From Selenomonadaceae bacterium (GTDB taxonomy: Bacteria; Bacillota; Negativicutes; Selenomonadales; Selenomonadaceae): a DNA stretch of 55,740 bases. The position numbers were made by a program, and so were the translations under genes. Below are positions 4,740 to 50,268 of this stretch, piece by piece (the first letter of the stretch is position 1; each line of letters starts with the position of its first letter). The notes below the pieces were generated by a model. That model saw nothing but the letters and a program-made list of their open reading frames with translations. It ran no database searches and was not told the origin of the DNA. The stretch is from NCBI GenBank assembly GCA_017554235.1, contig JAFZIV010000021.1, forward strand, positions 1 to 55,740, given 5' to 3'.

Positions 4740-5438
4740 ATGAGAAAAAAAATTAAACGTAAATCCACTAAGCCCGTTGAAGTCGTCAAGGAAGACCCTA
4801 CTTCATGGAGCGGCTTTTTTAAAAATTATCCGCGTATAATAGGAATGTTTATCCTGCTTTTATTTTTGCCGCCAATAGGTTGGTTTTTCGCCTACAAATT
4901 TTCGCCCTACGATAAAAAAACTACGATTGGAATTTCCGTTGTCTGTACGGCTTTTTTTGTCTACGCGGTTTTCATTTCGCCCCAACATGAATGGATTGAT
5001 AACGCTAAACTTACCCGCGCAGATTTTTGCACGCGATACAGTGAACAGGCTACCAAACTTGCGCCGCGCTTAAGTCTTACGATTGACGAAGAAAAAATTT
5101 CTGCCAACGGAGAAAATTTCAGCTATAAATTTAATGATAATCTTGAAATTTCCGCGCAGGTTCAAAATAATTTTGTCAGGGAAGTTACCGTGACTGCCGA
5201 GCCGAAAACTACTGATGATTCCTTTCAAGCGTTGAATAGTTTTGGGCTTGTAATTGCGACGCTTAGCCCCGAACTCAATCAAGATAAACGCGGTGAGATT
5301 TTACGGGAACTTCATATGCTTGATAAGAGTATTTCTGATGATTTAAATGAGTCTACGGAAAGCGGCAGAATTACTTATGGCGTCAAAACTTCTTCGGAAA
5401 AATTAATTTTTACGGCGCGGATTAATGCCGATTTTTGA
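4740..5438 (+). CDS. Membrane protein of unknown function, two TM helices
   Basis: A 232-residue protein. A basic N-terminus (KKIKRKSTK) is followed by two closely spaced hydrophobic helices (about residues 34-54 and 62-80) and a predominantly polar 150-residue C-terminal domain. I do not recognise the domain. The ATG at 4740 is preceded by GAAAGGA; earlier in-frame codons lie inside the upstream terminator. It lies 86 nt before polC on the same strand and may share its transcript, but nothing in it suggests a replication role. It contains two copies (5015 and 5152) of the dispersed octamer CCGCGCAG. Confidence 0.75.
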   Translation: MRKKIKRKSTKPVEVVKEDPTSWSGFFKNYPRIIGMFILLLFLPPIGWFFAYKFSPYDKKTTIGISVVCTAFFVYAVFISPQHEWIDNAKLTRADFCTRYSEQATKLAPRLSLTIDEEKISANGENFSYKFNDNLEISAQVQNNFVREVTVTAEPKTTDDSFQALNSFGLVIATLSPELNQDKRGEILRELHMLDKSISDDLNESTESGRITYGVKTSSEKLIFTARINADF

Positions 5439-5524
5439 CGCGTAAAGCCTTTTCACGAATTAGACAGCAGAATTATTTTCGGTTAAAATATGCAGACTTA
5501 AAATTTTTCTGCGAGGTGAATAAA

Positions 5525-8500
5525 ATGCCGTGTGAACTTAGACCACAAGAAAAAGCCATTGAAAATTTATTGAGACAGTTTCCGTTTGAAGAGGAACAGA
5601 TTAAAAATTTCGTGGAATTTTTTTTCCTTCGCAGAGTTATCATTCGTGAAGATGGTCTTATTGTAGATTTTTTGTATCTTGAAAGCATTAAGCCGACTTT
5701 GGAATTTACGCAGAAGGTGGAATATTTTTTCCAGCTGAATTTTAATGACAAGCTGACCTGCGAATTTAGCAAGACGCCTAAAAGAACTTTGCTGACGTAT
5801 AAATTTCACAGAAAACAACAGGATATTTGGGATAAATCTTTAATGCCTTTAAAGCCGCCGCAAATATTTAATCCCAATGATTTTCCCGATGAATTTATAC
5901 CTGCAGACGTTCCCATAACTATGCCAATTAAAACGTCAAAATCTGCGCGGGTAAACAAAGAAGACGAAATTATATTTGAAGATAATTCATTGCCGCTTGT
6001 ACACGAAGGCAGGGAAGTTATCACGCCGCAAAGAAAAACTGACGTACAAAAAAATATTGTCCCTACCGATAAAATTTTCGTCGAAAAAATTTCCGGCTCT
6101 GTCAAGAATATTGCTGATATTTATCTTATGGACGAAGCCACCGCTCATAAAGTCATAATCATAGGTGAACTTATGCACGATGACAGAAACGGTGCTAAAC
6201 TGCGCGAATTTAAAACAGGAACCTGCTCGGTAAGTTTTGCATTAGTGGACGACACGGACGGAATTTTTTGTAAGAAAATTTTTGACGCTAAGGAGCAGGC
6301 GGAAAATTTTCAGTCACGCATTAAAGATTTATCCTGCATAAAAATTAAAGGCACTGCGCGTTTTGATAAATATTCCGAAGAAATGACGGTAATGATTGAA
6401 ACAATTCAGCCCTTAGACACGGCTAAAAATCCTCGCGAAGATAACGCCGAAGTCAAGCGCGTTGAATTGCACGTTCACACGACGATGAGCGCAATGGATT
6501 CAATTATTTCGCCCGAAAAGTTGATTACAACTGCCGCAAATTGGAATTGGTCAGCCGTCGCGATAACGGATCACGGAGTTGTACAAGCCTTTCCATTTGC
6601 CGCTGATGTTGCCGAAAAACTTGCCAAGAAGGGTAAACATATCAAAATTATTTACGGTATGGAAGGCTACCTCACGACGGAAGAAAATCAGAAGTACGCC
6701 TATCACGTAATTTTGTTGGCTAAAAATAAAGTTGGTCTCGGCAATTTGTATCGCCTTGTGTCAATCAGTCAGTTAAAATATTTTTATCGTAAGCCGCGTA
6801 TTCCCAAAGACATTTTAGCGAAATTCCGCGAAGGTCTGATAATTGGTTCAGCTTGTGCGCAGGGCGAATTAATCAGCGCGATTCTTGAAGGCAAGGACGA
6901 CGTAGAGATTGACGAAATTGCAAATTTTTATGATTACATTGAAATTCAACCGATTCACAATAATAACTTTATAAAAGATTCGGAACAATTCCCTACAATT
7001 AAAACTGACGAAGATTTAAAAAATCTTAATCGTCGCGTTGCCGACATTGCACAAAAACTTAATAAGCCGTTGGTTGCAACTTGTGACGCGCACTTTTTAG
7101 ATCCTGAAGATGACATTTTCCGCGCAATTATGATGAGCGGCAAGGGATTTGATAACGCCGATAATCAGCCGCCAATTTTTTTACGCACTACCGAAGAAAT
7201 GTTAAAAGAATTTGATTACCTTGACGAAGATTTAGCTTATCAAGCGGTTGTGACTAATCCTAACGCTATTGCTGATTCGATTGAAGAATTAAAGCCGATT
7301 CCTGACGGTTTATATTCGCCGCAAATGCCCGGCGCGGACGCAGAGATTACCGAAATGTCCTACAAGCGTGCAATGGCTTTATACGGCGACCCGTTGCCTA
7401 AAATCGTTAAGGACAGACTTGAACAGGAACTTCGACCGATAACCACGCACGGCTTTTCGGTGTTGTATCTTATCGCTCAAAAGTTGGTTAAGAAGTCCAA
7501 TGACGACGGTTACTTAGTAGGCTCACGCGGCTCGGTAGGTTCATCATTTGTAGCGGCAATGACGGGCATTACTGAAGTTAATCCCTTGCCGCCGCATTAT
7601 CGTTGCCCTAAATGTCAGCACAGCGAATTTTTCACGAAAGGCGAAGCAGGTTGCGGTTACGACTTGCCAAATAAAAATTGTCCGATCTGTGGTCACCCGT
7701 TGATTAAAGACGGTCACGATATACCTTTTGCGGTTTTCTTGGGATTCGACGGCGACAAAGTCCCTGACATTGACTTAAACTTTTCGGGCGAATATCAATC
7801 AGCCGCGCATAAGTACACCGAAATTTTATTTGGGCGGCATAACGTCTACCGCGCAGGTACAATTTCAACTGTTGCAGAAAAGACAGCTTACGGTTTTGTG
7901 AAAAAATATTATGACGAACGCGACAAGAAAAAGCACGGTTCATTTATCGCCAAAATGGCTAATGGTTTTACCGGCGTCAAGCGCACGACTGGACAACACC
8001 CCGCAGGTATTATGGTTGTGCCACGTGATATGGACATACACTATTTTACGCCAATTCAACGTCCTGCAGAGGATAAAACTTCCACGACGATTACGACGCA
8101 CTTTGATTATCATTCTATAAGCTCACGTCTCGTAAAACTCGATATACTCGGACACGACGACCCGACGGTTATCAAAATGCTTGAAAATATTACGCACATT
8201 GATCCGCTTAAAATTCCGCTTGACGACAAACCTACGTTAAGTTTATTTTCGTCGACAAAGGCGATTGGTTTAAAACCTTCGCAAATTGGTACGAAGTCGG
8301 GAACTTTCGGCATACCTGAATTTAGGACAAGTTTTACGCGTGCAATGATTGATGACACTTCGCCGAAATGTTTTAGTGATTTGGTGAGAATTTCGGGATT
8401 TTCGCACGGTACGGACGTATGGCTTGGCAATGCGCAGGAACTTATTAAAAATCAAATTTGCACGCTGCAGGACGCTATATCTGCGCGTGATGATATTATG

Positions 8501-9202
8501 ATGTACTTGATTCATAACGGCGTTGAAGCTTTGAAGGCTTTCAAAATTATGGAAGGTGTCCGCAAAGGCAAGGGCATTAAACCTGATGATGTTGAAATGT
8601 TGCGGTCAAATAATATTCCTGAATGGTACATTGATTCTTGCCAAAAGATTAAATATTTGTTCCCACGTGCCCACGCTACGGCTTACGTTATGATGGCTTA
8701 TCGAATTGCTTATTGTAAAGTTCATTACCCGCTGGCTTATTATTCGGCTTATTTTTCTATCCGCGCAGATGAATTTAATGCGGACGAAATTGCGCAGGGC
8801 GAAAATTTTGTCAAGATGAAAATTGAGGAGTTAGAAAAACTTTCTCAAACGCGTAAGCTTGAATTGAAAGAAAATGAAAAATTAGCAGTTTTGCAAGTCG
8901 CCTATGAAATGTTCCTGCGCGGAATGGGCGTTGAGCGCGTGAATTTGTACGAATCGGACGCAGAAAAATTCATCGTGTTGGATAGGGAAAATAAACTTTT
9001 ACCGCCGTTATCGTCTCTTGTAGGAGTCGGAGTTGTCGCCGCCCGTAACATTGCAACTGCGCGGAAGGACGGAGAATTTTCATCGATACAGGATTTAGTT
9101 CAACGTTCGGGCATAAATAAAACTGCCGTTGAAGCTCTTAGAAATCATGGCAGTCTTAAAGGTATGGAGGAAACGAATCAAATTTCATTGTTCGGCTTTT
9201 AA
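5525..9202 (+). CDS. polC: PolC-type DNA polymerase III alpha subunit lacking the exonuclease domain
   Basis: A 1225-residue replicative polymerase. The order is an N-terminal domain (1-170), an OB fold (about 205-300), PHP (from about 310: ELHVHTTMS, ITDHGVVQ, CDAH), the polymerase core with SRGSVGSS, a Cys4 zinc module (CPKC...CPIC), the catalytic acidic motif PDIDLNFSGEYQ and KLDILGHDDPT, then tandem HhH and C-terminal domains ending NQISLFGF. Canonical Firmicutes PolC is about 1430 residues because a DEDD exonuclease of about 190 residues splits the PHP domain. Here PHP runs straight from IIYGMEGY to YHVILLAKN (about 6665-6710) and no FDxETTG motif exists. The start at 5525 follows GAGGTGA; a TTG at 5435 is also in frame but has no ribosome binding site. 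Confidence 0.95.
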   Translation: MPCELRPQEKAIENLLRQFPFEEEQIKNFVEFFFLRRVIIREDGLIVDFLYLESIKPTLEFTQKVEYFFQLNFNDKLTCEFSKTPKRTLLTYKFHRKQQDIWDKSLMPLKPPQIFNPNDFPDEFIPADVPITMPIKTSKSARVNKEDEIIFEDNSLPLVHEGREVITPQRKTDVQKNIVPTDKIFVEKISGSVKNIADIYLMDEATAHKVIIIGELMHDDRNGAKLREFKTGTCSVSFALVDDTDGIFCKKIFDAKEQAENFQSRIKDLSCIKIKGTARFDKYSEEMTVMIETIQPLDTAKNPREDNAEVKRVELHVHTTMSAMDSIISPEKLITTAANWNWSAVAITDHGVVQAFPFAADVAEKLAKKGKHIKIIYGMEGYLTTEENQKYAYHVILLAKNKVGLGNLYRLVSISQLKYFYRKPRIPKDILAKFREGLIIGSACAQGELISAILEGKDDVEIDEIANFYDYIEIQPIHNNNFIKDSEQFPTIKTDEDLKNLNRRVADIAQKLNKPLVATCDAHFLDPEDDIFRAIMMSGKGFDNADNQPPIFLRTTEEMLKEFDYLDEDLAYQAVVTNPNAIADSIEELKPIPDGLYSPQMPGADAEITEMSYKRAMALYGDPLPKIVKDRLEQELRPITTHGFSVLYLIAQKLVKKSNDDGYLVGSRGSVGSSFVAAMTGITEVNPLPPHYRCPKCQHSEFFTKGEAGCGYDLPNKNCPICGHPLIKDGHDIPFAVFLGFDGDKVPDIDLNFSGEYQSAAHKYTEILFGRHNVYRAGTISTVAEKTAYGFVKKYYDERDKKKHGSFIAKMANGFTGVKRTTGQHPAGIMVVPRDMDIHYFTPIQRPAEDKTSTTITTHFDYHSISSRLVKLDILGHDDPTVIKMLENITHIDPLKIPLDDKPTLSLFSSTKAIGLKPSQIGTKSGTFGIPEFRTSFTRAMIDDTSPKCFSDLVRISGFSHGTDVWLGNAQELIKNQICTLQDAISARDDIMMYLIHNGVEALKAFKIMEGVRKGKGIKPDDVEMLRSNNIPEWYIDSCQKIKYLFPRAHATAYVMMAYRIAYCKVHYPLAYYSAYFSIRADEFNADEIAQGENFVKMKIEELEKLSQTRKLELKENEKLAVLQVAYEMFLRGMGVERVNLYESDAEKFIVLDRENKLLPPLSSLVGVGVVAARNIATARKDGEFSSIQDLVQRSGINKTAVEALRNHGSLKGMEETNQISLFGF

Positions 9203-9217
9203 AAAATTTTATGAAAC

Positions 9218-12160: not shown

Positions 12161-13303
12161 TTATTTTGATTTTGTAGCATCAATAGCGTAGAACATATAC
12201 TTCCCGCGTCTGGTAATGTTCATGAAAACGTTCCAGCCTTCTTGCGGCAAAATATCGTTAAGCAAATGAGAGTTTGAAAAATTTGCGTCTATATAACGTT
12301 CATCATAAGGACACATTGCAAAAGATAATCTCCAGCCGTTGACGGTGGCATTACGCGCCATTTCACGAAGTGCCGCCTCTGCATTTGGCGCATCTATTCC
12401 AAAATATTTTCCGTGCGTAGTGTTGTATTCATTCGTTTTGTAAAAATACGCGCTGTCGGGAGTGCGTTGTAAATTATACGGCTCAATATCAGGCTCCCAA
12501 GAATGCGTTTCCTTCGCAATGTCAGCAGGCACATTAAAATAAATGTAATTGTTGTATTCCAAATCAGAATTTGTGAAAGAAGCGTCGTCCCAAGTCGCAT
12601 CGACGAAATAACTTTTATTGCCAAATTTTATTGTAGCCCAAGTGTGTCCGCTGCCGCCGGCTTGTCCTTCCATTCTGCTTACGTCAAAGCCGCACATTCT
12701 TGCCAACATAATAAACGCATCTGTATAACCTTGACAATTTGCGCGTCCGTCAAGAAGTGCGCCAATAGCTGAAGAAAATCTCGCCCCAAATGGGACATTA
12801 CCTTCCGCGTAAAAGGTAACGTTATTTGTTATCTTATTGTGAATAAAAAGTTCCTGTTGAAGAGCGGTAGGTTGTTGCAAAGCTCCATTGACGATATGGA
12901 CAGCCGCGTTATAAAGTTGCATTTCGTCTGCTGTTAAAAAAGACGTATCGCCGTGTTGATAGGCATAAGCTACGCGAGCACCGGGAGTGTTGGTAATTTC
13001 GCCCAGCGCGTAAATATCTTGTCCGTCTCTTTTCACAACATTAAAGACACCTGCCCAAATCGGAGCAATTTTAAAAAGATCCTGCCCCGTCAGTTCCTCA
13101 TCGGTAAAGTTGAGACCGCTGAAAATTACGGGGATAACCGTTTTTAAATTTTTATCGCACTCTCTAAGATAATTTGCGAAATCTTTTTTGCTTGTGAAAC
13201 GCGGCGCGGAGTTCCAGTCAACCTGCGCGGAATTTGCGGCAGAGGCAACACTTTGCCAGACGATAAAACAAACCGTCAATATTAAATTAAAAATTTTAAC
13301 CAT
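12161..13303 (-). CDS. Secreted transglutaminase-like protein
   Basis: A 380-residue exported protein. A signal peptide (1-22, ending SVASA) is followed by about 130 residues without recognised motifs and a transglutaminase/protease-like core. The catalytic triad is visible as Cys190 (RANCQGYTDAF), His220 (SGHTWATI) and Asp235 (FVDATWDD). Such domains act as cysteine peptidases or amide-linkage enzymes at the cell surface; the substrate is unknown. It lies 12 bp downstream of the nhaC-like gene and is probably in the same transcript. Confidence 0.85.
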   Translation of the reverse strand: MVKIFNLILTVCFIVWQSVASAANSAQVDWNSAPRFTSKKDFANYLRECDKNLKTVIPVIFSGLNFTDEELTGQDLFKIAPIWAGVFNVVKRDGQDIYALGEITNTPGARVAYAYQHGDTSFLTADEMQLYNAAVHIVNGALQQPTALQQELFIHNKITNNVTFYAEGNVPFGARFSSAIGALLDGRANCQGYTDAFIMLARMCGFDVSRMEGQAGGSGHTWATIKFGNKSYFVDATWDDASFTNSDLEYNNYIYFNVPADIAKETHSWEPDIEPYNLQRTPDSAYFYKTNEYNTTHGKYFGIDAPNAEAALREMARNATVNGWRLSFAMCPYDERYIDANFSNSHLLNDILPQEGWNVFMNITRRGKYMFYAIDATKSK

Positions 13304-13315: not shown

Positions 13316-14839
13316 TCATTGATTTTCATCCGGCGCACTGACTGTAGCACGAATCACGAACATTGCCGCAACTATACACGCTAAACTTACGGCAAGTCCA
13401 ATCCAACCGTTTTGAGTGAGACCTGCGACTAAAAATCCTGCCGCACAACACTCTGCAACGACTAACACGTAGGGAACTTGTGTAGCAACGTGTTCAATGT
13501 GGTTACACTGCGCACCCGCCGACGCTAAAATTGTTGTGTCTGAAATAGGTGACGCATGGTCGCCGCAAACTGAACCTGACAATATCGCCGCTATGCAAAC
13601 TACCAATAAATTATTTGCTTCAGCGTCATGCAAGTTCATAAATACTGACATTGCAATAGGAATTAAAATTCCGAATGTTCCCCAGCTTGTTCCCGTCGCG
13701 AATGCTAAACAAATTGACACGATGAAAAATAAAACCGGAAGAAACATTACCAACGACGTATACTCTTGTACGATTGTACCAACATAGCCGCCTAAATTCA
13801 AGTAGTCACTGCCGCAAATTCCTGATAAAGTCCACGCCAAGCACAAAATAAATATAGCGGGAACCATTGCCTTAAATCCCTGCGAGTAGCATTCGCAGTA
13901 CTCCGAAAAATTTATTACTCTGCGCGGAAGATAAAGAACTGATATAAAAATCAACGCGATAAATGAACCGAGTGCCAACGCCTTCGACGCGTCACAATCT
14001 GCAAACGCATCAGCTATCGACTTACCTTCATTTATTCCGCCCGTGTAAAGCATTCCGTAGATACATAACGCGATTAATACGATAAGAGGTAAAACCAAGT
14101 CGACGATTTTTCCGTTGCCGACAGAAATATTTTTGACTTCGCCCGCGTCTTGATATTCGACGGGGATTTTTAATTCGTCTAAATTTTCGTTTACAGATTT
14201 ACGCATCGTCGCAAAATCTCTTCCGCTTGCCACAATGAATGCCATAAAAATCATTGTCAAAATTGCATAGAAATTAAACGGGATTGTATGAAGGAAAAGT
14301 AAAAAGCCGTCTATAAGTGAATCTTCAGGGAGTGATGAACTGACTGCCGCCGCCCAACTTGATACCGGCGCAATTATGCAGACGGGAGCTGCCGTTGAGT
14401 CGATGACATAAGCTAACTTTGCACGGGCAATTTTAAATTTATCTGTAACTGGACGCATTACCGTTCCAACCGTCAAACAGTTAAAATAGTCGTCGATAAA
14501 AATTAAAACTCCTAAAAATGCCGTTACGCCGAGCGCAGATTTTTTTCCTGAAATTGTCCGCCGCGCCCAATCGCCGTATGCACGAGTTGCACCCGACCGC
14601 GTTATTGCTGCTACCAAAATTCCTAAGATGACGAGGAACGCCAAAATATTTACGTTGTCACCGATTTTGCCGGACATTATATCAAAAAATGTCGTGATTG
14701 ATTCCAGAAAATTTCCGCCCGTAAAAATCATCGCACCTGAAAAAATTCCGATTATCAGTGAAAAATAAACTTCCTTCGTAACAAGTGCCAGCACGATTGT
14801 TATTAACGGCGGCAACATTGCCATTGCGCTAACTTCCAT
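13316..14839 (-). CDS. NhaC-family Na+/H+ antiporter-like permease
   Basis: A 507-residue polytopic membrane protein with about 12 hydrophobic segments. Family-typical signatures include FIDDYFNCLTVGTVMRPVTD, STAAPVCIIAPVSSWAA and the late GSVCGDHASPISDTTIL segment. It belongs to the NhaC/YuiF-type antiporters that exchange cytoplasmic Na+ for protons, sometimes coupled to amino-acid exchange. The ATG is preceded by AAAGGG. It lies 29 bp after the TPR gene and 12 bp before the transglutaminase-like gene; no functional link is apparent. Confidence 0.88.
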   Translation of the reverse strand: MEVSAMAMLPPLITIVLALVTKEVYFSLIIGIFSGAMIFTGGNFLESITTFFDIMSGKIGDNVNILAFLVILGILVAAITRSGATRAYGDWARRTISGKKSALGVTAFLGVLIFIDDYFNCLTVGTVMRPVTDKFKIARAKLAYVIDSTAAPVCIIAPVSSWAAAVSSSLPEDSLIDGFLLFLHTIPFNFYAILTMIFMAFIVASGRDFATMRKSVNENLDELKIPVEYQDAGEVKNISVGNGKIVDLVLPLIVLIALCIYGMLYTGGINEGKSIADAFADCDASKALALGSFIALIFISVLYLPRRVINFSEYCECYSQGFKAMVPAIFILCLAWTLSGICGSDYLNLGGYVGTIVQEYTSLVMFLPVLFFIVSICLAFATGTSWGTFGILIPIAMSVFMNLHDAEANNLLVVCIAAILSGSVCGDHASPISDTTILASAGAQCNHIEHVATQVPYVLVVAECCAAGFLVAGLTQNGWIGLAVSLACIVAAMFVIRATVSAPDENQ

Positions 14840-24807: not shown

Positions 24808-24843
24808 GAAAAATCATCGCCTTTAAAAATTTTCCGCGCAGAT

Positions 24844-28952: not shown

Positions 28953-29018
28953 CAGAAAACCTCCCAAAAGTTTAAAAACTATATTATAAATTTTAATTCA
29001 CAATTCTTAATTCTTAAT

Positions 29019-32507: not shown

Positions 32508-32613
32508 TCAAAGATTTTTCGACGCAACTTGATTGTAATTTAAAAATTTTGCTTCAATATGGCGTGATTAATGGCAGTTGATAAATTTCAAGTTGGTAAA
32601 GAATTTTTTGTTT

Positions 32614-32731
32614 ATTGAATATACTTTTCTCTTTGACGCAAAGAGAAAAGTAACAAAAGAGAAACAGCCCGCAGCCTTCGCATCACGCTCAGGGTGCGGG
32701 CGGGCGCACGTCCTTGTGCGCCTCTTATTTT
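32614..32731. repeat. Three-hairpin intergenic repeat, copy 1
   Basis: Begins ATTGAATATACTTTTCTCTT, followed by an inverted repeat CTTTTCTCTTTG/CAAAGAGAAAAG, the link TAACAAAAGAGAAAC, a GCCCGC/GCGGGC hairpin, and GGGCGCAC-GTCCTT-GTGCGCC. A second copy with the same architecture is at 47579-47692. This fills most of the 400-bp gap between the LCP and rpoB genes; no gene is apparent in the rest. Confidence 0.85.
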
Positions 32732-39624: not shown

Positions 39625-40728
39625 TTACAAGTTGACTCCGAAAAATCTTTCAATCTCATCAAACGGAATCTTTTTCATATTGTCGTACAAGTCAACGTGA
39701 TTAGCGTCAGGAACTATCATCAATTCCTTGTTATCGCCCTTCATCAAAATATAAGCGGTCTCCGAAAAATAACGGCTGTGAGCTTTTTCACCATGAATTA
39801 AAAGCACCGGCGTCTGAATCTCGTCAACATATGAAAGAAGCGGCATATTCATAAATGATAACGCGCTTGTAACGTTCCAGCCGTCATTGGAGTTAAGGGA
39901 GCGTTTATGATAACCGCGTTTCGTTTTGTAGTAGTCGTAATAATCTTTGACGTATTGCGGCGCGTCAGCAGGTAACGGGTCAGCCACACCGCCCGCACGT
40001 TGATAAATTCCGCGTCGATAATCGTTAGTGCGTTGACGATTTAAAGCTAAACGATTTCTTTGACGATCATTTTCAATCACGGCTTCATCTTTCTCATAAT
40101 CAAAATAGCCGTTGGCAATTACGCGGCTCATATCGTACATCGTCATTGTAACTGTAGCTTTAATGCGTGTATCAATCGCCGCCGCATTTAACGCCATACC
40201 GCCCCAGCCGCAAATTCCGATAATGCCGATTCTGTTGGCGTTGACATTTTGCAAAGTCGAAAGATAATCAATCGCCGCGCAGAAATCTTCCGTGTTAATG
40301 TCAGGCGATGCAACAAAACGTGGAGTGCCTCCGCTTTCTCCTGTAAATGACGGATCAAAGGCTATCGTCAAAAATCCACGATTCGCCATTTCCTGCGCGT
40401 ATAATCCCGATGACTGCTCTTTAACTGCGCCGAAAGGTCCGCATACAACAATAGCAGGAAGTTTACCTACATAATTTTTCGGCTCGTATAAATCAGCGGC
40501 AAGCGTAATTCCATAGCGATTGACGAAAGTTACTTTGCGATGATTAACTTGATTGCTCTTGGGAAAAACTTTATCCCACGCGCCTGTAAGATTTAATTTT
40601 TCAGGTTTAATTCTGCTTGTCGCCGCTTGATCTGCATTGCTAGCATAAGTTGTGTTAATCTGCGCGGCAAACGGCGTCATCAATCCGATAGCCAACGCCG
40701 CCGCTAAAAATTTTTTCGTAAAACTCAT
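39625..40728 (-). CDS. Secreted alpha/beta hydrolase
   Basis: A 367-residue exported protein: a signal peptide (about 1-30, ending TYAS) then a YcjY/dienelactone-hydrolase-like alpha/beta hydrolase (DLYEPKNYVGKLPAIVVCGPFG, the nucleophile region GIIGICGWGGMALNAA with Cys where many hydrolases have Ser, the acid near PVLLIHGE and the histidine in DANHVDLYD). An Arg/Asn-rich insert (about 215-245) precedes the lid. Substrate unknown. It is followed 23 bp later by the UDG-like gene; the acetyltransferase gene ends directly before it. Confidence 0.83.
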   Translation of the reverse strand: MSFTKKFLAAALAIGLMTPFAAQINTTYASNADQAATSRIKPEKLNLTGAWDKVFPKSNQVNHRKVTFVNRYGITLAADLYEPKNYVGKLPAIVVCGPFGAVKEQSSGLYAQEMANRGFLTIAFDPSFTGESGGTPRFVASPDINTEDFCAAIDYLSTLQNVNANRIGIIGICGWGGMALNAAAIDTRIKATVTMTMYDMSRVIANGYFDYEKDEAVIENDRQRNRLALNRQRTNDYRRGIYQRAGGVADPLPADAPQYVKDYYDYYKTKRGYHKRSLNSNDGWNVTSALSFMNMPLLSYVDEIQTPVLLIHGEKAHSRYFSETAYILMKGDNKELMIVPDANHVDLYDNMKKIPFDEIERFFGVNL

Positions 40729-41343
40729 TTAAACTTCCCCTTCATGGTTAGCAGACTGGTAACTTTCCGCGTCGAAATCCACTTTCTTAATAAATTTCGC
40801 GGGAATGCCGCCGACAACCGTGTAAGGTTCAACATCCTTTGTGACAACAGCTCCCGCTGCTACGACTGCCCATTCGCCAATCGTTACGCCTTGCAAAATC
40901 GTAGCATTACTTCCAATCCAAACATTGTCGCAAATTTTAATTGGCTTGTAACTCAACCTGCGATTAAGATTCGGTTCAAGCGCGTGAGTAGCCGTCGCCA
41001 ATACAACATTATGTCCAATGAAAACTCTGTCGCCAATCGTAATTCCGCCTTGATCTTGAAAGTGACAGCTGGAATTTACAAAAACATATTTTCCGAACGT
41101 GATATTTTTTCCGAAGTCAGCATAAAACGGCGGGAATAATCTAAAAGTCGAATCAACTTCCCTGCGTGTCAACCTTGACATAATTTGCACAATTTCTTCC
41201 GGCGTATGGTAGCTTGTATTTAATTCCATTTCAATGCGGCGCGTCTCTTGACACAAGTCCGCAAAAAATTTCCCGCGTTCAGGATTTTTCCGCGCAGAAT
41301 GATTTTCATCGCAAAAACTTTCGCGCAATTCGTCAAGTGTCAT
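40729..41343 (-). CDS. Hexapeptide-repeat acetyltransferase
   Basis: A 204-residue left-handed beta-helix acyltransferase (INSS-free N-terminus, then IGDRVFIGHNVVLATATHAL with the catalytic His, ICDNVWIGSNATILQGV, IGEWAVVAAGAVVTKDV). It resembles the Maa/LacA group and should acetylate a sugar hydroxyl. The start is ATG at 41343, with GAGGTGAA upstream; the GTG at 41352 is inside that site. It abuts the hydrolase gene and sits 5 bp after the lipoprotein gene, so the three are probably co-transcribed. A paralogue of the superfamily is at 18998-19567. Confidence 0.85.
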   Translation of the reverse strand: MTLDELRESFCDENHSARKNPERGKFFADLCQETRRIEMELNTSYHTPEEIVQIMSRLTRREVDSTFRLFPPFYADFGKNITFGKYVFVNSSCHFQDQGGITIGDRVFIGHNVVLATATHALEPNLNRRLSYKPIKICDNVWIGSNATILQGVTIGEWAVVAAGAVVTKDVEPYTVVGGIPAKFIKKVDFDAESYQSANHEGEV

Positions 41344-41348: not shown

Positions 41349-41819
41349 TCACCTCTCAAATTTAACAGTGACATCTCCGTTACCTAAAATTTTATCAAAC
41401 TCGTCAACATTTAAAATTTTTCCCAGTCGCGTGTAGCTGTAACTCGTCGAAAAATCTTCGTAGAAAATCACAACGTAACTTGAACTGTACAACATTAAAT
41501 CGCCCGCGTGAATCATACCTACGCGCTCATCAGCAGACGGCAAATTTTCATTGAATCGATAATATTTTTCGTTACCGTTAAGTTCCGTCATTGTGACTTC
41601 AAGTGGCAACTTTTCTAAAAATTTCCGCGCAGATTCGTTATCCTCAAGTACCTCGTCGAAAGTTTTTCCATTGACTATAATTTTAATATTCGTCGTAACC
41701 GTCTCCGTTTCTTGCGTAGGAACTTTTTCAACCTGCACGGGAACTTCTTTACTATCAGCGCAACCTGCAAATGTTATCAGCGTAAAAATTAACGCCGTCA
41801 TAAAAAATTTTTTAATCAT
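41349..41819 (-). CDS. Lipoprotein with a cyclophilin-like fold domain
   Basis: A 156-residue lipoprotein: a lipobox ending TFAGC at about residue 20, a short Thr/Val/Gln linker, then a cyclophilin-like domain (KIIVNGKTFDEVLEDNESARKFLEKLP..., GDLMLYSSSYVVIFYEDFSTSYSYTRLGKI). This domain is widespread in small bacterial proteins; the isomerase residues of true cyclophilins are not recognisable. It lies 15 bp after proS and 5 bp before the acetyltransferase gene. Confidence 0.75.
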   Translation of the reverse strand: MIKKFFMTALIFTLITFAGCADSKEVPVQVEKVPTQETETVTTNIKIIVNGKTFDEVLEDNESARKFLEKLPLEVTMTELNGNEKYYRFNENLPSADERVGMIHAGDLMLYSSSYVVIFYEDFSTSYSYTRLGKILNVDEFDKILGNGDVTVKFER

Positions 41820-41834: not shown

Positions 41835-43547
41835 TTACAAATTTTTAAGCAACTCAAAAATTTTCGTAACGCAATCTGCGCGGTCAAAATGGAAAATTTC
41901 TCCGCTACGACGAACTTTAATTTCAACGGAATTGCTTTCCAAAGTTTTTGGACTAATCGTCACACGAATTGGATAACCTATCAAGTCACAATCTTTAAAC
42001 TTGACGCCTGCACGTTCCGTCCTGTCATCAAGCAGTACATCAACGCCTAAATTTTTCAACTCGTCATAAATTTTTTCAGCGTAATCAAGTTGTTCAGGAA
42101 CTTTCGCATTAACGGGAACAATTACAACTTCAAAAGGCGCAATCGCTCGCGTCCAAATAATTCCGTCCGCATCGTTATTCTGCTCAATCGCCGCCGCCAT
42201 TGTCCGACCGACGCCAATTCCGTAACAGCCCATTTCAAAAAATTTTTCCTTACCGTTTTCGTCAAGGAAAGTTGCATTGAGAGCCTTGCTGTATTTATTG
42301 CCGAGCGTGAACACTTGTCCGACTTCAATGCCGCGCGTCATCTTCAAACTTTTTCCGCAATGTGGGCAGGGATCGCCTTCCTGAACCATACGAATATCAG
42401 TTACGATAATTTTTTCTGCGTCGAAATCGCGTTTAGGATTGACGTTAATAAAATGCGTGTCAACTTCGTTAGCACCGGCAACCGCGTTGAACATTTCCAT
42501 AACCGTTAAATCTACGACGATAGCCGCGCCGTCTTTTAATCCAATCGGCGACATAAAGCCCGCGCAACCGCCAGCCTCATTAATCGCTGAATCTTCCGCC
42601 ATATGCAAATGTAAAGCGTTCGTCGCGTTTAAAACTTTTATTTCGTTTACTTCGTGGTCGCCGCGTACAAATGCCAAAATTAATCTGCCGTCATCATCTT
42701 GGAAGGCAACCGCTTTAATCGTCTTTTCAATCGGCACTTTCAAATAATTTTTCACCATTTCTATTGTATGACAATTCGGCGTTAAAACTTTTTCAAGCGG
42801 TTTCATTTCTTCGACTTCCGCGCAGATTACTTTCAATTCTGCTTTCTCGTCGCTAGCCGCGTAATCGCAACTCTCACAGTAAGCAATGGAACTCTCGCCG
42901 CTGGGAGCTAAAACCGTAAATTCGTGTGAATGCCCGCCGCCAATCGCTCCGTTATCAGCTTCGACTGCGCGGAATTTCAAGCCGCAACGTGTAAAAATTT
43001 TGTCGTAAGCGTCATACATTTTTTCGTAGGAAATATTCATACCGTCAAGGTCTTTGTCGAAGGAATATAAATCTTTCATTACAAATTCTCGACTGCGCAT
43101 TAAGCCGAAACGTGGACGAATTTCATCACGGTATTTATTTTGAATTTGATAGAGCATAAGCGGCAGTTGCTTATAAGAATTTACTTCGCCGCGAATCAAT
43201 GACGTTATCATTTCTTCGTGCGTGGGACCTAAACAAAATTCTCTGCCGTGACGATCTTTCATTCTCATCATTTCATCGCCATATACCGCCCAACGTCCCG
43301 ACTCTTGCCAAATTTCGGCGGGTTGAGTTATCGGCATCATAAGTTCCTGTCCGCCTTTAGCGTCCATTTCCTCACGAATTATTTGCATAATTTTTTTCAT
43401 TACTCGCCAGCCCAACGGAAGATAAGAATACATTCCGCCTGCTGATTTTCTGATTAAACCTGCGCGGAGCATAAGTTTATGGCTTATAAGTTCTGCTTCT
43501 GCGGGGACTGCGCGAAGTGTCGGCGCGTAAAATTCACTTGCTTTCAT
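41835..43547 (-). CDS. proS: Prolyl-tRNA synthetase (bacterial type with editing domain)
   Basis: A 570-residue class II synthetase. The catalytic motifs [17 protein letters not shown] and [17 protein letters not shown] are followed by the motif 2 region [21 protein letters not shown], the INS editing domain (about 225-380), motif 3 [17 protein letters not shown], and an anticodon domain (about 470-570). A CxxC pair (PCPHCGK) is also present. GAGGTGA precedes the ATG. It has its own promoter (43579-43607) and no T-box. Confidence 0.96.
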
Positions 43548-43656: not shown

Positions 43657-45267
43657 TTAGGATTTATCTTTGACAACAATTTTAGCAATGCCGTAATATT
43701 TGCAAACTCCGTCACGAGTTACGCCGTTGTCAAAATCCACAAAAAATACGTGACGCAATGCACGATTTTTTAAAGTTATCGGCGGGAAAGTTACGACCGG
43801 CTTATATTTTTCGGCGGCTTTTGCAACTTCATTTATTCGCCAATCGTTTTCTTGCTTCAAAGTGTAAGTTATGAACAACGCGGCTATGATAGTAAATCCT
43901 CCGATTGATAACGCACCTAATTTTAAAATCCTTGCAACTGACGGCACGGAAAATTTTTCGCGTACAAGCGGCAAACGTATTACCGCCACGATACCAATTA
44001 AAATCATTACTACCGAGCTGAATGTTGATCGCGCAGGAAATGTCGGCGCAAAAATCATTACAAGATTGTTGAATATCGCCAGCAAAAATAAAATCGTAGC
44101 GTAACGCACTTCAGCAAAATTTTTAAGCGCGTCGACGATGCCAAATTTTTTTACGCCCAATGCACGACGCAACGGCAGATAAATCAAAATTATTATCAGC
44201 CAATAAATTATCATCTCTTCGGACTTCGACATAAAATTTTCAAAGCGTTCAATAAATTTTTCGGACGTGTCAAGCGCGGGGAATATGTGATTGACGAAAA
44301 AATTGCTAATTGTCGTTGTAATTAAGCTGTCGAAGAAATACGAGATTGTAAAAATTATCGTGACGATGATTATAGGTTTAAGTTTTAAGGTTTTAGGGTT
44401 AAGAGTTTCGCCATCTTCTTTCAAAGAATTTAACGCGCAGATTAGAATTAATACGGCAGGCAAAAGATACAAAAACATTTCAGCATTACCCGCAATTTGA
44501 TTTCCTATGTGCGCCAAAATTCCTTTGCCCTCACCTTGCACGTCGTAGCGGACAAAATTTCCCGGCGCGGCGATTAAAATTATTGCTCCAATTAAACTTC
44601 CTAAACTTCCTGCCGCCGCCCAATGCATGGGGCGATTTTTTTTGTACAGATAAAAAGTTATTGCGCCAGTCAGCAAAGTTACAGTCACGCCTAAATTTTC
44701 TACAGAACATCCAGCGATTATTCCCATAAAAAACATTACGACTGCAGGTAAAATTTTTCCGCGCAGATTTATTTTTCCGGCTAATGTTAAATTGTACGGC
44801 AATAAAAATATCAACGCGGGAACTGCCGACCATAAATAAACCGTCGAGCCGCTTTTCCAAACTGCAACTTCTCCAAAATGTGGCAATGATAACCAAGTTA
44901 AAAGTCCTGTCACTGCTAAGATTATCGGTTCATCCAATTTAATTTCTCTTCGCGCGTGAAAGTAAATTAAAACTACCAATGCCGTAAATAAAATTGCGTT
45001 GGCAACGTCAAAAGGAAATTTCCCAAGCCATAAGAAAAAATTTAAACAGAATACCGTAAACGCTCTGCCGCCGTGTAAAAGATAATGTTGATACGTCGAT
45101 TCAAATACGTCTAAAATTGAGTTGACGTGAGTTTTTGTTCCCCAAATCATTGAGTAATCGTAATCGTCGCGGTGTAACGGCATTAAATAATTCAGCGTGA
45201 ACATTACCGCAAAAATTATGATTATAGGGATTAGGAAATAGGGATTAGGGAATAATTTTTTTTCCAA
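43657..45267 (-). CDS. Polytopic membrane protein (DUF6056-like)
   Basis: A 536-residue integral membrane protein with about 10-12 hydrophobic segments and a small C-terminal extracytoplasmic domain (about 470-536). The HRDDYDYS segment near residue 32, SGSTVYLWSAVPALIF and AAPGNFVRYD recall the DUF6056/GT-C-like membrane proteins involved in surface polysaccharides; that assignment is tentative. The start is TTG at 45267 with AAAGGAGG. Residues 5-16 (LFPNPYFLIP) and about 290-300 (LNPKTLKLKP) are encoded by in-frame copies of the dispersed heptamer-type repeat. Confidence 0.72.
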   Translation of the reverse strand: MEKKLFPNPYFLIPIIIIFAVMFTLNYLMPLHRDDYDYSMIWGTKTHVNSILDVFESTYQHYLLHGGRAFTVFCLNFFLWLGKFPFDVANAILFTALVVLIYFHARREIKLDEPIILAVTGLLTWLSLPHFGEVAVWKSGSTVYLWSAVPALIFLLPYNLTLAGKINLRGKILPAVVMFFMGIIAGCSVENLGVTVTLLTGAITFYLYKKNRPMHWAAAGSLGSLIGAIILIAAPGNFVRYDVQGEGKGILAHIGNQIAGNAEMFLYLLPAVLILICALNSLKEDGETLNPKTLKLKPIIIVTIIFTISYFFDSLITTTISNFFVNHIFPALDTSEKFIERFENFMSKSEEMIIYWLIIILIYLPLRRALGVKKFGIVDALKNFAEVRYATILFLLAIFNNLVMIFAPTFPARSTFSSVVMILIGIVAVIRLPLVREKFSVPSVARILKLGALSIGGFTIIAALFITYTLKQENDWRINEVAKAAEKYKPVVTFPPITLKNRALRHVFFVDFDNGVTRDGVCKYYGIAKIVVKDKS

Positions 45268-46157: not shown

Positions 46158-47565
46158 TAATGAGGTGATTCCAAAATTCTCCGTAAAAATTTTTTTCCAA
46201 CGCTTTTTCAAAAGATTTCAGGGTAAAAAAATTTCGTCGCAAATTGCGATAACTTACGCGCTTATTTTGTTTGTGGTACTGGTAATCTCAAATTTTTTTA
46301 CTAATGCAGGAATTAGTTATCTTTTTCATCATCAAGCCGCCCGTGCAATGGAGCTTGCTATAAATCGTATGGATAGAACTCTTGTTGACAGAGAAACTTT
46401 CTTTCGTATGAATATGGAACTTAACAGCGTTGTTATTCGCATAACCGATTCAAAAGGAATTGTTGTAGCCGATAACAGTCCGAATTTTCCTGACACAGAT
46501 AAAATGTTGACTGATATTGTTAAGGACAAACCTTTTTTTGCAAGTGACGATTATACGTTGATTGAGACTCCGCATTCCCTTGTATACTATAAAAAAATTC
46601 CTGTAAAAGTGGAAGGCGAAAATTTTAACGTCCACTTTTTTAGGACAATCACCTTTGAAAAAGAATTTATCAGCTATATGGCGTGGGGCAATTTGATTTT
46701 AGACGTTCTCGGTTTGGTTTTGTCGGTAAGTGCTGGATATTTCTTAATGAGGAAAGTTTTGCGCCCTTTGAGACAGGTTACGGAAACTGCGCGGGAAATA
46801 TCCAAAGGTGATATGAACAAAAGATTGATGGTTGATGAATCCGGAAACGAAGTCGTAGAATTGGCGGCAAGTTTTAATTTTATGCTGGACAAAATTCACG
46901 AAAGTTTTTCACGTCAACAACAATTTATTTCTGATGCTTCGCACGAATTACGCACGCCCGTCACGGTCATAAACGGCTATGCTGAACTGCTTAAAAAATT
47001 TGGTGCGCAGGATAAAGAATTGCTTGACGAGTCGATAATCGCCATAAAAAACGAATCTGATAATCTGAAAAATTTTTTGGATTCGCTGTTATTTTTGGCG
47101 CGGGCGGATCAAGGAAATCAACCGCTGGATAAACTTCCGATAAACTTAGAAAAAATTTTGCGTGAAGTCACAGACAAGTTTAACAATCCTCGCGTAAAAT
47201 TTTTCAGTAATGGAAATTTTGAGATGATTGGCGATGAATTTATGTTGAAAAAAATGTTCGGCGCGATTTTGGATAACGCCTTAAAGTACAGCAACGATGA
47301 TGTTACGGTTAAGCTCGAAACTTCAAATAACGAGGCGTCGGTTCATATAATCGACAGCGGCATAGGAATTTCTGACGAAGATAAACCGAAAATCTTTGAC
47401 AGATTTTTCCGCGCAGATAAATCACGTACAAAAAATGATGAAGATAAATCGGTAGGGTTAGGGCTTTCCGTTGCGAAATGGATTGCTGACAATCACGACA
47501 TTTCGATTGAGATTAACAGCGAACTTGAAAAAGGTACAGATTTTATTTTGGAGATTGTGGAGTAA
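46141..47565 (+). CDS. HAMP-containing sensor histidine kinase
   Basis: A kinase of about 474 residues: TM1 (about 30-55), an extracytoplasmic sensor (about 56-165), TM2 (about 168-190), HAMP (about 190-245), HisKA with the phospho-histidine in ISDASHELRTPVTVING, and HATPase with GAILDNALKYS, DSGIGISDED, IFDRFFRADKSR and GLGLSVAKWI. It should phosphorylate the response regulator encoded just upstream. The start is uncertain: ATG at 46141 overlaps the regulator stop by 17 bp, GTG at 46162 is an alternative, and neither has an ideal ribosome binding site. Confidence 0.9.
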   Translation: MLSAINNEVIPKFSVKIFFQRFFKRFQGKKISSQIAITYALILFVVLVISNFFTNAGISYLFHHQAARAMELAINRMDRTLVDRETFFRMNMELNSVVIRITDSKGIVVADNSPNFPDTDKMLTDIVKDKPFFASDDYTLIETPHSLVYYKKIPVKVEGENFNVHFFRTITFEKEFISYMAWGNLILDVLGLVLSVSAGYFLMRKVLRPLRQVTETAREISKGDMNKRLMVDESGNEVVELAASFNFMLDKIHESFSRQQQFISDASHELRTPVTVINGYAELLKKFGAQDKELLDESIIAIKNESDNLKNFLDSLLFLARADQGNQPLDKLPINLEKILREVTDKFNNPRVKFFSNGNFEMIGDEFMLKKMFGAILDNALKYSNDDVTVKLETSNNEASVHIIDSGIGISDEDKPKIFDRFFRADKSRTKNDEDKSVGLGLSVAKWIADNHDISIEINSELEKGTDFILEIVE

Positions 47566-47578
47566 AAAAATTTTTTTA

Positions 47579-47692
47579 ATTGAATATACTTTCTCTTTGG
47601 CGCAAAGAGAAAGTAACAAAGAGAAACATGCCCGCTGAAATCGCATCCGGCGATTTGCGCGGGCGGGGGCGCGTCCTTGCGCCCCTCTCCTA
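47579..47692. repeat. Three-hairpin intergenic repeat, copy 2
   Basis: Same architecture as 32614-32731: TTGAATATACTTTCTCTTTG, an 11-bp palindrome CTTTCTCTTTG/CAAAGAGAAAG, TAACAAAGAGAAAC, GCCCGC/GCGGGC, and GGGGCGC-GTCCTT-GCGCCCC. The second stem differs in sequence between copies while its ends are conserved. It lies between the kinase and ECF ATPase genes. Confidence 0.85.
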
Positions 47693-47726
47693 ATTTTATA
47701 TTTATCGAAATTTCAGGAGGAAAATT

Positions 47727-48554
47727 TTGGAAATTATCCGCGCAGAAAATTTGAGACACGTTTATAAAACTTCGGCGGGTGAAAAAGTTGCACTTGACGG
47801 CGTAAATTTTTCTATTAATGAAGGAGAGTTTATCGCGATAATCGGCATAAACGGCAGCGGTAAATCGACTTTGGCAAAACATTTTAACGCGCTCTTAATG
47901 CCGAGTGACGGGAAAATTTTTGTAGCAGGGCTTGATACTTCGGACAAAAAAAATTTATGGAGAGTTCGCGAAAATGTTGGAATGGTTTTTCAAAATCCCG
48001 ACAATGAAATTGTTGCCGCTGTAGTCGAAGATGACGTAGCTTTCGGTTGTGAAAATTTAGGTATTGAACCTGATGAAATTCAACGGCGCGTAAATTTTGC
48101 GCTTGACATTGTGAATATGAGCGCGTATAAAAAATTTTCTCCGAGCAAGTTAAGCGGCGGACAAAAACAGAGAATCGCAATAGCAGGCGTGTTGGCAATG
48201 CAGACAAAAATAATTGTCTTCGATGAGGCAACGGCGATGCTTGACCCTGCAGGGCGGCGCGAAATTTTAGACACAGTGCAACGTCTTCACGCGCAGGGCT
48301 TGACGATAATTTATATAACGCACTTTATGGAAGAAACGGCAGTTGCGGACAAAATTTTTTTAATGGAAGACGGCAAAATTTTAAAAATTGGAACTCCGCG
48401 CCAAATTTTTTCTGATGTAAAAGAGATTAAACGTCTTGGTCTTGATGTACCTGTAGCAGTGGAACTTGCCGAGAGGTTACGACGACGCGGCTTAAAATTT
48501 CCTAAAAATATTTTGACTGACGAAGAATTTATTAACGCTTGTTTAAACGTTTAG
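47727..48554 (+). CDS. ecfA1: Energy-coupling factor (ECF) transporter ATPase
   Basis: A 275-residue ABC ATPase of the EcfA1/CbiO type. Walker A is GINGSGKST; the Q-loop FQNPDNEIVAAVVEDDVAFG is diagnostic of ECF ATPases; the signature is LSGGQKQRIAIAG, and Walker B IIVFDEATAMLDP, followed by YITHFMEE. It energises vitamin or metal uptake together with a second ATPase, EcfT and an S-component, none of which is nearby. The start is TTG at 47727 with CAGGAGG upstream. Its last 23 bp overlap the 3' end of the convergent metI gene. It carries a copy of the dispersed octamer at its start (47738). Confidence 0.88.
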   Translation: MEIIRAENLRHVYKTSAGEKVALDGVNFSINEGEFIAIIGINGSGKSTLAKHFNALLMPSDGKIFVAGLDTSDKKNLWRVRENVGMVFQNPDNEIVAAVVEDDVAFGCENLGIEPDEIQRRVNFALDIVNMSAYKKFSPSKLSGGQKQRIAIAGVLAMQTKIIVFDEATAMLDPAGRREILDTVQRLHAQGLTIIYITHFMEETAVADKIFLMEDGKILKIGTPRQIFSDVKEIKRLGLDVPVAVELAERLRRRGLKFPKNILTDEEFINACLNV

Positions 48555-49185
48555 CTAAAGTGTTTCCTGAAAATTGGACGAGTTGAACCAGCACGATTAA
48601 AATTATTACCGTTGCTAACATAACTTCATGACGGAAACGTTGATAGCCGTAACGTATCGCTAAATCTCCCAATCCGCCGCCGCCGATTGCGCCTGCCATT
48701 GCCGATTCTCCGACAAGAGCAATTATTACAGTCGTCAACTGTGCCACGATACTAGGCATTGCTTCCGGCAATAAAACTTTCGTGATAATCTGCGCGGGAG
48801 TTGCGCCCATTGATAAAGCCGCCTCAACTAATCCTGCAGGAACTTCTTTCAAAGAAGTTTCAACTTGCCGCCCTATAAATGGGATTGACGCGATAACCAA
48901 CGGGACGATTGCCGCCGTTGTTCCTATCGCACTGCCGACAATAAATCTTGTCAGCGGAATTATTGCAACCATTAAAATTATAAACGGGATTGAACGAATT
49001 GCATTGACGATTGAGCCTACTGTTTGATTCAACGGTAAGCTTTCTAAAATTTGTCCTTTGTCAGTTGTATGCAATAAAACTCCCAATGGTATGCCGATTA
49101 ATGACGCTATTGCCATTGATACGACGACCATATAAACTGTTTCACCCAATGCCTTAGTCAGCAACGGAAGTATTTCTGCGAACAT
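48532..49185 (-). CDS. metI: Methionine ABC transporter permease
   Basis: A 217-residue inner-membrane permease with about five hydrophobic helices and the MetI landmarks KALGETVYMVVVS, GIPLGVLL, and the EAA loop EVPAGLVEAALSMGATPAQII. It pairs with MetN to import methionine. The ATG at 49185 has GAGGTG 7 nt upstream and lies within the end of metN (32-bp overlap), implying translational coupling. No metQ substrate-binding gene follows; instead the 3' end overlaps a convergent ECF ATPase gene. Confidence 0.9.
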   Translation of the reverse strand: MFAEILPLLTKALGETVYMVVVSMAIASLIGIPLGVLLHTTDKGQILESLPLNQTVGSIVNAIRSIPFIILMVAIIPLTRFIVGSAIGTTAAIVPLVIASIPFIGRQVETSLKEVPAGLVEAALSMGATPAQIITKVLLPEAMPSIVAQLTTVIIALVGESAMAGAIGGGGLGDLAIRYGYQRFRHEVMLATVIILIVLVQLVQFSGNTLAKRLNKR

Positions 49186-50215
49186 AACCAATCACCTCAA
49201 CGCGAACATCTTTACCGCTTAAAAAATTCAGCGCGTCTTGAACTGCACTTTCACCGCCGCTTAAACCGACGATAAATCGTCCGAAAGGTACGCCGTGAAT
49301 TTCATCAAGGTTACCGAAAAGCATTGTACATTCAACGCCTTGACAAGTACGAATCATCTCGGCAAGTACAGGATCATCTGCGCGGTCGCCCAAAAAATTT
49401 AAACGTAAAAGCAGGAGTGCGCCTTCGGTATGTTCCGCAGAAATTTTATTGCCGCGAAATGCCGCCGGTAATTCATTGGACAAAAGAACACTGATAAATT
49501 CTTTTGTAATTTCGTGTTGCGGATTGGTGAACACGTCAAGGACTAAACCTTTTTCAGCAATTTTGCCGTCGGAAATTACGGCTACCTTGTCGCAAATTTC
49601 TTTAATGACTTGCATTTCGTGCGTTATGACGACAACGGTTAATGCAAATTTTTTATTTATATCTTTAATCAACGCGAGAATAGACTTTGTAGTTTGCGGA
49701 TCGAGTGCGGAGGTTGCCTCATCACAAAGCAAAATTTTTGGATCTGATGCAAGTGCGCGGGCAATTCCTACGCGCTGTTTTTGTCCGCCGCTTAACTGCG
49801 CGGGATATTGTTTAGCTTTATCCTTCAATCCTACCAATTCAAGCAACGGTTCAACTTTTTTTGCGATAACATCAGACGGCGTCTTTGATAATGTCAGAGG
49901 AAATGCAATGTTATCATAAACCGTCGCCGAGCTTAACAAATTGAAATGCTGAAAAATCATGCCGATACTTTTTCTTGCTTCGCGCAGTTCACTTTCGGAA
50001 AGTTTCATCATATCTTGCCCGTCAACAATCACACTGCCGCTAGTCGGACGCTCCAACATATTTATGCAACGTACAAGCGTTGACTTGCCAGCACCGCTAA
50101 GACCGATTATGCCGTAAATTTCACCTTTCGCAATATCTAAATCGATACCTTTAAGCGCGTGAACTTTTCCCGATGGCGAATCATAAATTTTTTCAACTTT
50201 AGAAATTTTTATCAT
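49154..50215 (-). CDS. metN: Methionine ABC transporter ATP-binding protein
   Basis: A 353-residue ATPase. The ABC domain (1-240) has Walker A GLSGAGKST, signature LSGGQKQRVGIARAL and Walker B LLCDEATSALDP. A C-terminal NIL domain (about 265-345) binds methionine and inhibits transport, as known for MetN. CGAGGTTTC precedes the ATG. It is 53 bp downstream of the MsbA-like gene and overlaps metI. No SAM riboswitch or S-box is visible upstream, which fits co-transcription from further upstream. Confidence 0.92.
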   Translation of the reverse strand: MIKISKVEKIYDSPSGKVHALKGIDLDIAKGEIYGIIGLSGAGKSTLVRCINMLERPTSGSVIVDGQDMMKLSESELREARKSIGMIFQHFNLLSSATVYDNIAFPLTLSKTPSDVIAKKVEPLLELVGLKDKAKQYPAQLSGGQKQRVGIARALASDPKILLCDEATSALDPQTTKSILALIKDINKKFALTVVVITHEMQVIKEICDKVAVISDGKIAEKGLVLDVFTNPQHEITKEFISVLLSNELPAAFRGNKISAEHTEGALLLLRLNFLGDRADDPVLAEMIRTCQGVECTMLFGNLDEIHGVPFGRFIVGLSGGESAVQDALNFLSGKDVRVEVIGYVRRNTSVAD

Positions 50216-50268
50216 CAGAAACCTCGTTTAAAATTTTTTTGATTACACAAAATCTGCGCGGCAAAATT

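Follow-up and report, generated by a model that had tools for sequence, protein, structure and literature searches.

Uptake words are established in two bacterial families, the Neisseriaceae and the Pasteurellaceae (PMC3630211). The DNA uptake sequence (DUS) of the Neisseriaceae is short, asymmetric and very numerous, and exists in dialects that track the core phylogeny and in part differ by a single base (PMC3630211); for both the DUS and the uptake signal sequence (USS) of the Pasteurellaceae, biased uptake combined with recombination has been argued (PMC1939737, PMC3630211). The Pasteurellaceae also encode a minor-pilin operon, comNOPQ, with ComN/PpdA as the predicted receptor (PMC12616744). 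For Veillonella parvula, the screen of two genomes described in PMC5397411 yielded no uptake word of at least 10 bp with at least 100 copies, and left 9-mers open. Here we analyze a stretch of 55,740 nucleotides from a Selenomonadaceae bacterium (assembly GCA_017554235.1, contig JAFZIV010000021.1, positions 1 to 55,740; the window), together with the genome to which it belongs (the source genome) and related genomes, with respect to a dispersed octamer, CCGCGCAG, which is probably an uptake signal sequence analogous to the neisserial DUS and the Pasteurellaceae USS.

A genome-wide octamer independent of codon usage

The original prediction had described CCGCGCAG as a selected DNA word, and the counts support this. 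In the whole source genome (2,274,839 bases in 65 contigs) it occurs 755 + 753 = 1,508 times on the two strands, compared with 91 + 103 copies of the word read backwards, which served as control. An order-3 Markov model predicted 18 copies in 396 kb of sampled sequence, where 286 were observed; the count lies far above, and not near, the Markov expectation, the comparison by which the prediction was to stand or fall. This is the genome-wide over-representation of a short word expected of an uptake signal. The window itself holds 37 exact copies (15 on the forward and 22 on the reverse strand), against a mean of 1.32 and a maximum of 5 in 100 dinucleotide shuffles. When its 8-mers were ranked under an order-2 model, ranks 1-3 went to A/T runs and ranks 4-6 to CCGCGCAG and two words overlapping it. 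An extended form, CCGCGCAGATT, is present 13 times in the window, and the commonest 12-mer containing the octamer in the 396 kb is CCGCGCAGATTT.

Many one-base variants had also been claimed, which holds at position 1, where TCGCGCAG (103 observed, 20.8 expected) and ACGCGCAG (75 observed, 23.0 expected) are in excess in 590 kb of source-genome sequence and GCGCGCAG is depleted (2 observed, 23.7 expected). It does not hold elsewhere: the remaining variants reach at most about 1.6 times expectation, and several fall below it. The octamer is not a palindrome.

Codon usage was examined in 434,430 bases containing 351 simple open reading frames (ORFs; at least 100 amino acids, longest first), by shuffling synonymous codons 100 times within each gene. 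Coding copies numbered 297, compared with 15.7 +/- 4.1 after shuffling (maximum 26 in 100), and occupied all six frames (sense 17, 80 and 78; antisense 42, 42 and 38). Codon pairs, which had been named in advance as the explanation that would undo the claim, were therefore rejected as the cause of the excess. Sites without any overlap with an ORF number only 16 of 312 (0.32 per kb, versus 0.77 per kb inside), so that about 95% of the copies are in ORFs.

Strand use is even. In 590,517 bases of the source genome (about 26%), 422 sites were divided 208/214 between the forward and reverse strands. The test was made per contig, the contigs being unordered, and none was out of line (chi-square 7.29, 13 degrees of freedom, p 0.89); contig C1, for example, was split 35/31 across 98.6 kb. 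Judged per contig, the word thus stands in both orientations without bias, as an uptake signal would. The same split contradicts the suggestion, made among others in the original prediction, that the word could be a chromosome-orientation signal. It also bears on recombination hotspots, another of the functions proposed there. Chi words are short and dense, and they are skewed along replication. A hotspot of this type, read by AddAB or RecBCD and with its recognition altered in the clade that carries a T form of the word (below), would accord with the observation that Chi words differ between species (PMC3630211), but the octamer has neither a strand bias overall nor a skewed contig, and we consider this explanation quite improbable. 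A control in Escherichia coli was uninformative, with Chi counts of 23 versus 18 in two 50-kb stretches and no clear skew, so that the argument that disfavours the Chi type rests on the strand counts of the source genome.

The sequence shared by the copies is short. Among 285 aligned sites, T is preferred at positions -2 to 0 and A, T and T at +9 to +11, while every other flanking position within 45 bases carries at most 0.07 bit; the copies have only about 12 bases in common. Even spacing was looked for as a signature and not found, the sites being clumped with a coefficient of variation (CV) of 1.28, or 0.86 once gaps longer than 5 kb are excluded. Close pairs (less than 100 bases apart) make up 15 of 404 intervals (3.7%, versus 7.4% expected). 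The longest word-free stretch covers 18.5 kb (C1 11255-29744) and starts with a repetitive ORF of 2,356 amino acids that looks secreted (locus L104 12406-19476, on C1). A binding site for a protein that organizes the chromosome or guides replication would explain the genome-wide spread of the word; given even strands, uneven spacing and the near absence of the word from some species of the genus, such a function is very improbable.

Two dialects within a single genus

The comparison with related genomes called for by the original prediction showed that the word is bound to one genus, where it occurs in two dialects. By RpoB, the window is nearest to Selenomonas-type metagenome-assembled genomes, its best segment being 74% identical to Selenomonas ruminantium RUG14411 (among the best 80 of 596 loci); the relatives' family, which would be Selenomonadaceae-like, and their class are assigned from this loose placement. 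Counts of CGCGCAGATTT covered 189 family genomes, 66 of the source genus and 123 others. This word has 201 copies in the source genome and is high in many of the 66 genus members, but none of the 123 others has more than 14. A dialect was assigned by a rule of our own (at least 300 copies and at least twice the reversed word, taking the larger of CCGCGCAG, dialect C, and TCGCGCAG, dialect T). Whole-genome counts then divided the genus into 34 C genomes, 9 T genomes (G123 and G131 weakly so) and 23 in which the word is weak or missing. The strongest C genomes are G010 (2,103 C/356 T), G124 (2,007/306) and the source genome (1,508/382), and the strongest T genomes G006 (2,335 T/170 C) and G127 (2,294/132); G004 (2,206/123) and G024 (1,941/256) are T as well. 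G028 is mixed (420 C, 599 T), and others are nearly empty of both words (G013, 3 C/11 T; G008, 5/5; G115, 8/2). In sampled sequence TCGCGCAG is the top 8-mer of G006, G004, G024, G033, G034 and G019.

In a ComEC tree of 32 genomes, all six T genomes included form one clade (support 100/98), which adjoins the mixed G028 and lies within a group that is otherwise C or poor in both words; four word-poor genomes make up the outermost branch. Labels in this tree were set by hand, with G028, G001 and G021 labelled C but weak by the dialect rule, and the tree is without G036, G002 and G011, which had no ComEC entry. Lineage dialects thus follow phylogeny, as an uptake signal would, in one gene tree rooted at its midpoint, and on that basis the simplest reading is that C is ancestral and that T was derived once.

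Homologous sites give a finer view of this change. Alignment of seven T genomes to the sampled stretches of the source genome gave 124 site-genome pairs over 55 sites, pairs from related T genomes not being independent. CCGCGCAG was retained in 2 pairs and replaced by TCGCGCAG in 38, spread over 15 sites, whereas control words (starting with C and with at least six G/C) were retained in 14.8% and showed the same first-base change from C to T in 1.4%. TCGCGCAG stood at 11/34 sites in G006, 10/28 in G004, 7/13 in G024, 6/13 in G127 and 4/11 in G033. Four close C genomes had CCGCGCAG intact in 44 of 77 pairs (controls 21.9%, or 28.9% for control words with seven G/C), and the nearly word-free G013 had it in 0/19 (control 7.0%). 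Of 25 sites in frames that make the change synonymous, 13 had the T form, compared with 4 among 29 in the remaining coding frames (Fisher p 0.0035), which suggests that sites tend to adopt the dialect if the encoded protein permits. This last comparison used all alignments of at least 200 bases, in which 17 of 56 sites were converted, compared with 15 of 55 in the main set; the two sets differ in stretches and in retention rule, hence the different counts.

These sites also speak to a dispersed mobile repeat, of the repetitive extragenic palindrome (REP) or miniature inverted-repeat transposable element (MITE) kind, as carrier of the octamer. The source genome does contain a dispersed intergenic repeat that can form hairpins, but 40 of the 124 homologous T-genome words are identical or altered at the first base only (gapped alignment places excluded), the 285 aligned sites share no more than the short core described above, and the copies lie mostly in ORFs and in all frames. 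A mobile carrier is contradicted by flank profile, ORF location and homologous sites alike; it is hardly conceivable and was rejected.

A search of sampled sequence for other dialects in the word-poor G003 and G013 gave nothing clear. In G036, another word-poor member of the genus (loci L134-L138 and L298), the palindrome TCCGCGCGGA occurs at 22 places in 104 kb. TCCGCGC is common to this palindrome and CCGCGCAG, and the palindrome may represent an additional dialect or a word of a different kind, comparable to the highly iterated palindrome HIP1 of cyanobacteria. A HIP-like origin, in which DNA methylation and methyl-directed mismatch repair inside the cell produce the word and dialects track changes of methyltransferase, has to be weighed for CCGCGCAG as well. 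HIP1, a dense and GC-rich octamer, gives way to alternate HIPs in some lineages, and its deviations mainly affect the end bases (PMC4390886); deviations of CCGCGCAG likewise cluster at position 1, and the palindrome of G036 occurs in the same genus. However, the HIPs described in PMC4390886 are palindromes, and no palindromic relative was found among the most enriched NNGCGCNN/NNCGCGNN words of the source genome and three T genomes. GCGC and CGCG stand at 0.93 and 1.03 of expectation in the source genome, and a crude motif scan of its sampled stretches (about 26% of the genome) gave no convincing 5-methylcytosine (m5C) enzyme. Given the asymmetry of the word and the lack of any excess of GCGC or CGCG, the HIP1-like palindrome that had been offered as an option fits the source genome poorly, and we regard a HIP-like origin as unlikely.

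Uptake genes and a proposed mechanism

The original prediction had asked whether the transformation genes (comEC, dprA and those of the pilus) are intact; the genes found are those of ComEC, PilB/PilT-type ATPases, a secretin and pilins. ComEC of the source genome contains the DUF4131, Competence and Lactamase_B domains, and the Competence domain was detected in 58 of 60 genomes searched, the source genome included. Two ATPases were read as PilB and PilT, in addition to a TadA in a Tad locus. A PilQ/GspD-like secretin is encoded, secretins being present in 57 of the 60 genomes, again including the source genome. About 5 kb from the secretin gene lies an ORF of 3,537 amino acids (L285 5624-16237, contig C36) with GD-rich repeats and, by eye, a hydrolase-like part.

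Two pilins are candidates for a receptor. One is encoded by gene 1 of a minor-pilin operon with four genes, the other is a 125-amino-acid GspG/ComP-like pilin whose top Pfam match is ComP_DUS (19.9 bits, below the cut-off of 27.3) and whose top NCBIfam match, GspG, is also below cut-off. The operon is whole in 28 of the 37 genomes that have its first gene in the fetched loci, many of which are incomplete. In G017 and G022 pilT is next to the operon, and in G023 and G120 it is next to the operon's first gene; the source genome has no such arrangement. The third gene weakly matches a prepilin-peptidase-dependent-protein model. The N-terminus marks the product of the first gene as a pilin, at or slightly below the Pfam cut-off, and the predicted structure combines a single long helix with a head rich in strands (mean predicted local distance difference test score, pLDDT, 80.9). 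Out of 18 loci tried (that of the source genome and 17 others) 13 could be aligned, five giving fragments only; the C-terminus reads ...DSVGRxRG, with GRxR in 10 of the 13 aligned members. FimT has a C-terminal GRxR whose arginines take part in binding DNA (PMC8897410), and the GRxR tail is a lead to the receptor, no proof.

Taken together, we infer competence, word-dependent uptake, a receptor and drive from these genomes, and the uptake function of CCGCGCAG is putative. In the mechanism we propose, a protein at the pilus tip on the cell surface would bind the word on DNA, often with T before it and A-T-T after it; the type IV pilus would retract, and the DNA would cross the outer-membrane secretin and then ComEC to recombine with the chromosome. 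Since fragments bearing the word would be imported more often, the word would spread, and biased gene replacement would maintain it at all places where the encoded protein can accommodate it. In one branch the receptor may have come to prefer T instead of C at position 1, with the genome subsequently rewritten to TCGCGCAG. Enrichment, even strands, asymmetry, genus-bound dialects and T forms that are mostly silent are what biased uptake with recombination predicts. Of the four options in the original prediction, the uptake signal is the best fit, by its dialects, even strands, asymmetric word and the presence of several uptake genes.

Several observations weigh against an uptake signal. Two T genomes have no TCGCGCAG at homologous sites (G034 0/14, G019 0/11), and in the close C genomes per-base identity within the word (0.82-0.95) barely exceeds that of the flanks. 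The sites are clumped, with 15 gaps over 5 kb where 8.5 are expected, and their location in ORFs is unlike that of the gonococcal DUS, 35% of which is coding (PMC1939737). As a control the reversed word is crude, given that CCGCGCAG exceeds it at low density also outside the genus (214 versus 46 in G054, 92 versus 12 in G056). As to the receptor, the 125-amino-acid pilin matches GspG better than ComP_DUS, the operon's first product has GRWS and not GRxR in the source genome, and the GspH/FimT Pfam model is matched by none of its 13 aligned members. G013 and G008 are nearly without the word yet have ComEC, and G013 also keeps the four-gene operon, so that possession of these genes is no predictor of the word; and a dialect change observed once cannot link the word to a protein.

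On balance we favor the view that uptake sequences evolved here independently for a third time, beyond the two established families, in a system in which a one-base change of preference rewrote genomes and can be traced at homologous sites throughout a genus with at least 66 species, some nearly word-free and one, G036, perhaps with a palindromic word. If confirmed, it would place an uptake-word system in a group for which the literature searched describes none: no open-licence full text (a set outside which most subscription papers and bioRxiv preprints lie) contained the octamers as whole words or joined "DNA uptake sequence" with Negativicutes, and no uptake word in Selenomonas or related Firmicutes was among the matches listed. 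A case in so distant a lineage would show that uptake words evolved repeatedly. Molecular drive and selection for self-recognition have long been debated as causes of the spread of such words, and with two dialects, a mixed species and nearly word-free species in one genus the question becomes testable by comparison. The word may also help to transform bacteria of this group.

The window and its relation to described systems

In the window, forward-strand copies are located at 5015-5022, 5152-5159, 7849-7856, 8761-8768, 17686-17693, 18618-18625, 21821-21828, 24834-24841, 40275-40282, 41290-41297, 41625-41632, 42818-42825, 44759-44766, 47409-47416 and 47738-47745. Reverse-strand copies are located at 5943-5950, 8915-8922, 9057-9064, 13223-13230, 13920-13927, 16467-16474, 16994-17001, 21064-21071, 30010-30017, 31138-31145, 31454-31461, 34944-34951, 38612-38619, 40660-40667, 41876-41883, 42965-42972, 43460-43467, 46787-46794, 48790-48797, 49378-49385, 49796-49803 and 50254-50261. 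An earlier list of 36 copies had 35 of these starts right; it gave 8925 for 8915 and overlooked 7849. It was also correct in reporting no copy in the PTS gene (2284-4611), gpmI (24844-26379) or PGK-TIM (27015-28967), or beyond 50261, the copy at 24834-24841 stopping 3 bases short of gpmI at its 3' end. Three copies could be followed into T genomes: at 41876-41883 the homologous place reads TCGCGCAG in G006 and G127 but not in G004, at 42965-42972 it reads TCGCGCAG in G127 and G004 and CCGCGCGG in G006, and at 43460-43467 it reads TCGCGCAG in all three.

Two further features of the sequence were observed. The dispersed intergenic repeat mentioned above is about 130 bases long, with two possible hairpins, and occurs in the window at 47556-47710 and 32596-32725. 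It was found at 16 places in the sampled source genome, these two included, and at many in G002, G011, G025 and G128; the region 46500-48500 had no Rfam match. Moreover, GGCC is nearly absent, with 30 sites in 590 kb of the source genome (observed/expected 0.03), three of them in the window (526, 3038 and 29033). The ratio ranges from 0.01 to 0.49 in 26 other genomes of the genus and from 0.86 to 1.16 in five named loci of relatives, and the scarcity looks like avoidance of a restriction target.

Among described systems, HIP1 and the alternate HIPs of cyanobacteria resemble the octamer as dense, GC-rich words of the same length with lineage replacements (PMC4390886), but they are palindromic and linked to methyltransferases. 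Natural competence is known from Veillonella parvula, which would belong to a related class, and an uptake word was sought there and none identified in the account of PMC5397411. Chi sites differ from the word by the strand bias that it lacks. The Pasteurellaceae USS, AAGTGCGGT, has a density similar to that of CCGCGCAG here but is an unlike word, and the T tracts at helical distance that flank it are missing within 45 bases of the sites in the source genome. Both words are mostly coding (65% of the USS in Haemophilus influenzae, PMC1939737), and the four-gene minor-pilin operon, with its weak match of the third gene, is reminiscent of comNOPQ. The neisserial DUS is another word in another taxon: its canonical form as given in PMC3630211, GCCGTCTGAA, is not matched by CCGCGCAG or TCGCGCAG, the common part of its core being a CTG triplet that could easily arise by chance. 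It differs further in its smaller coding share and in the orientation of close pairs, of which one in a total of four is inverted here (396 kb). What the octamer shares with the DUS is its form, as a short, asymmetric and numerous word with lineage dialects, some of them one base apart.

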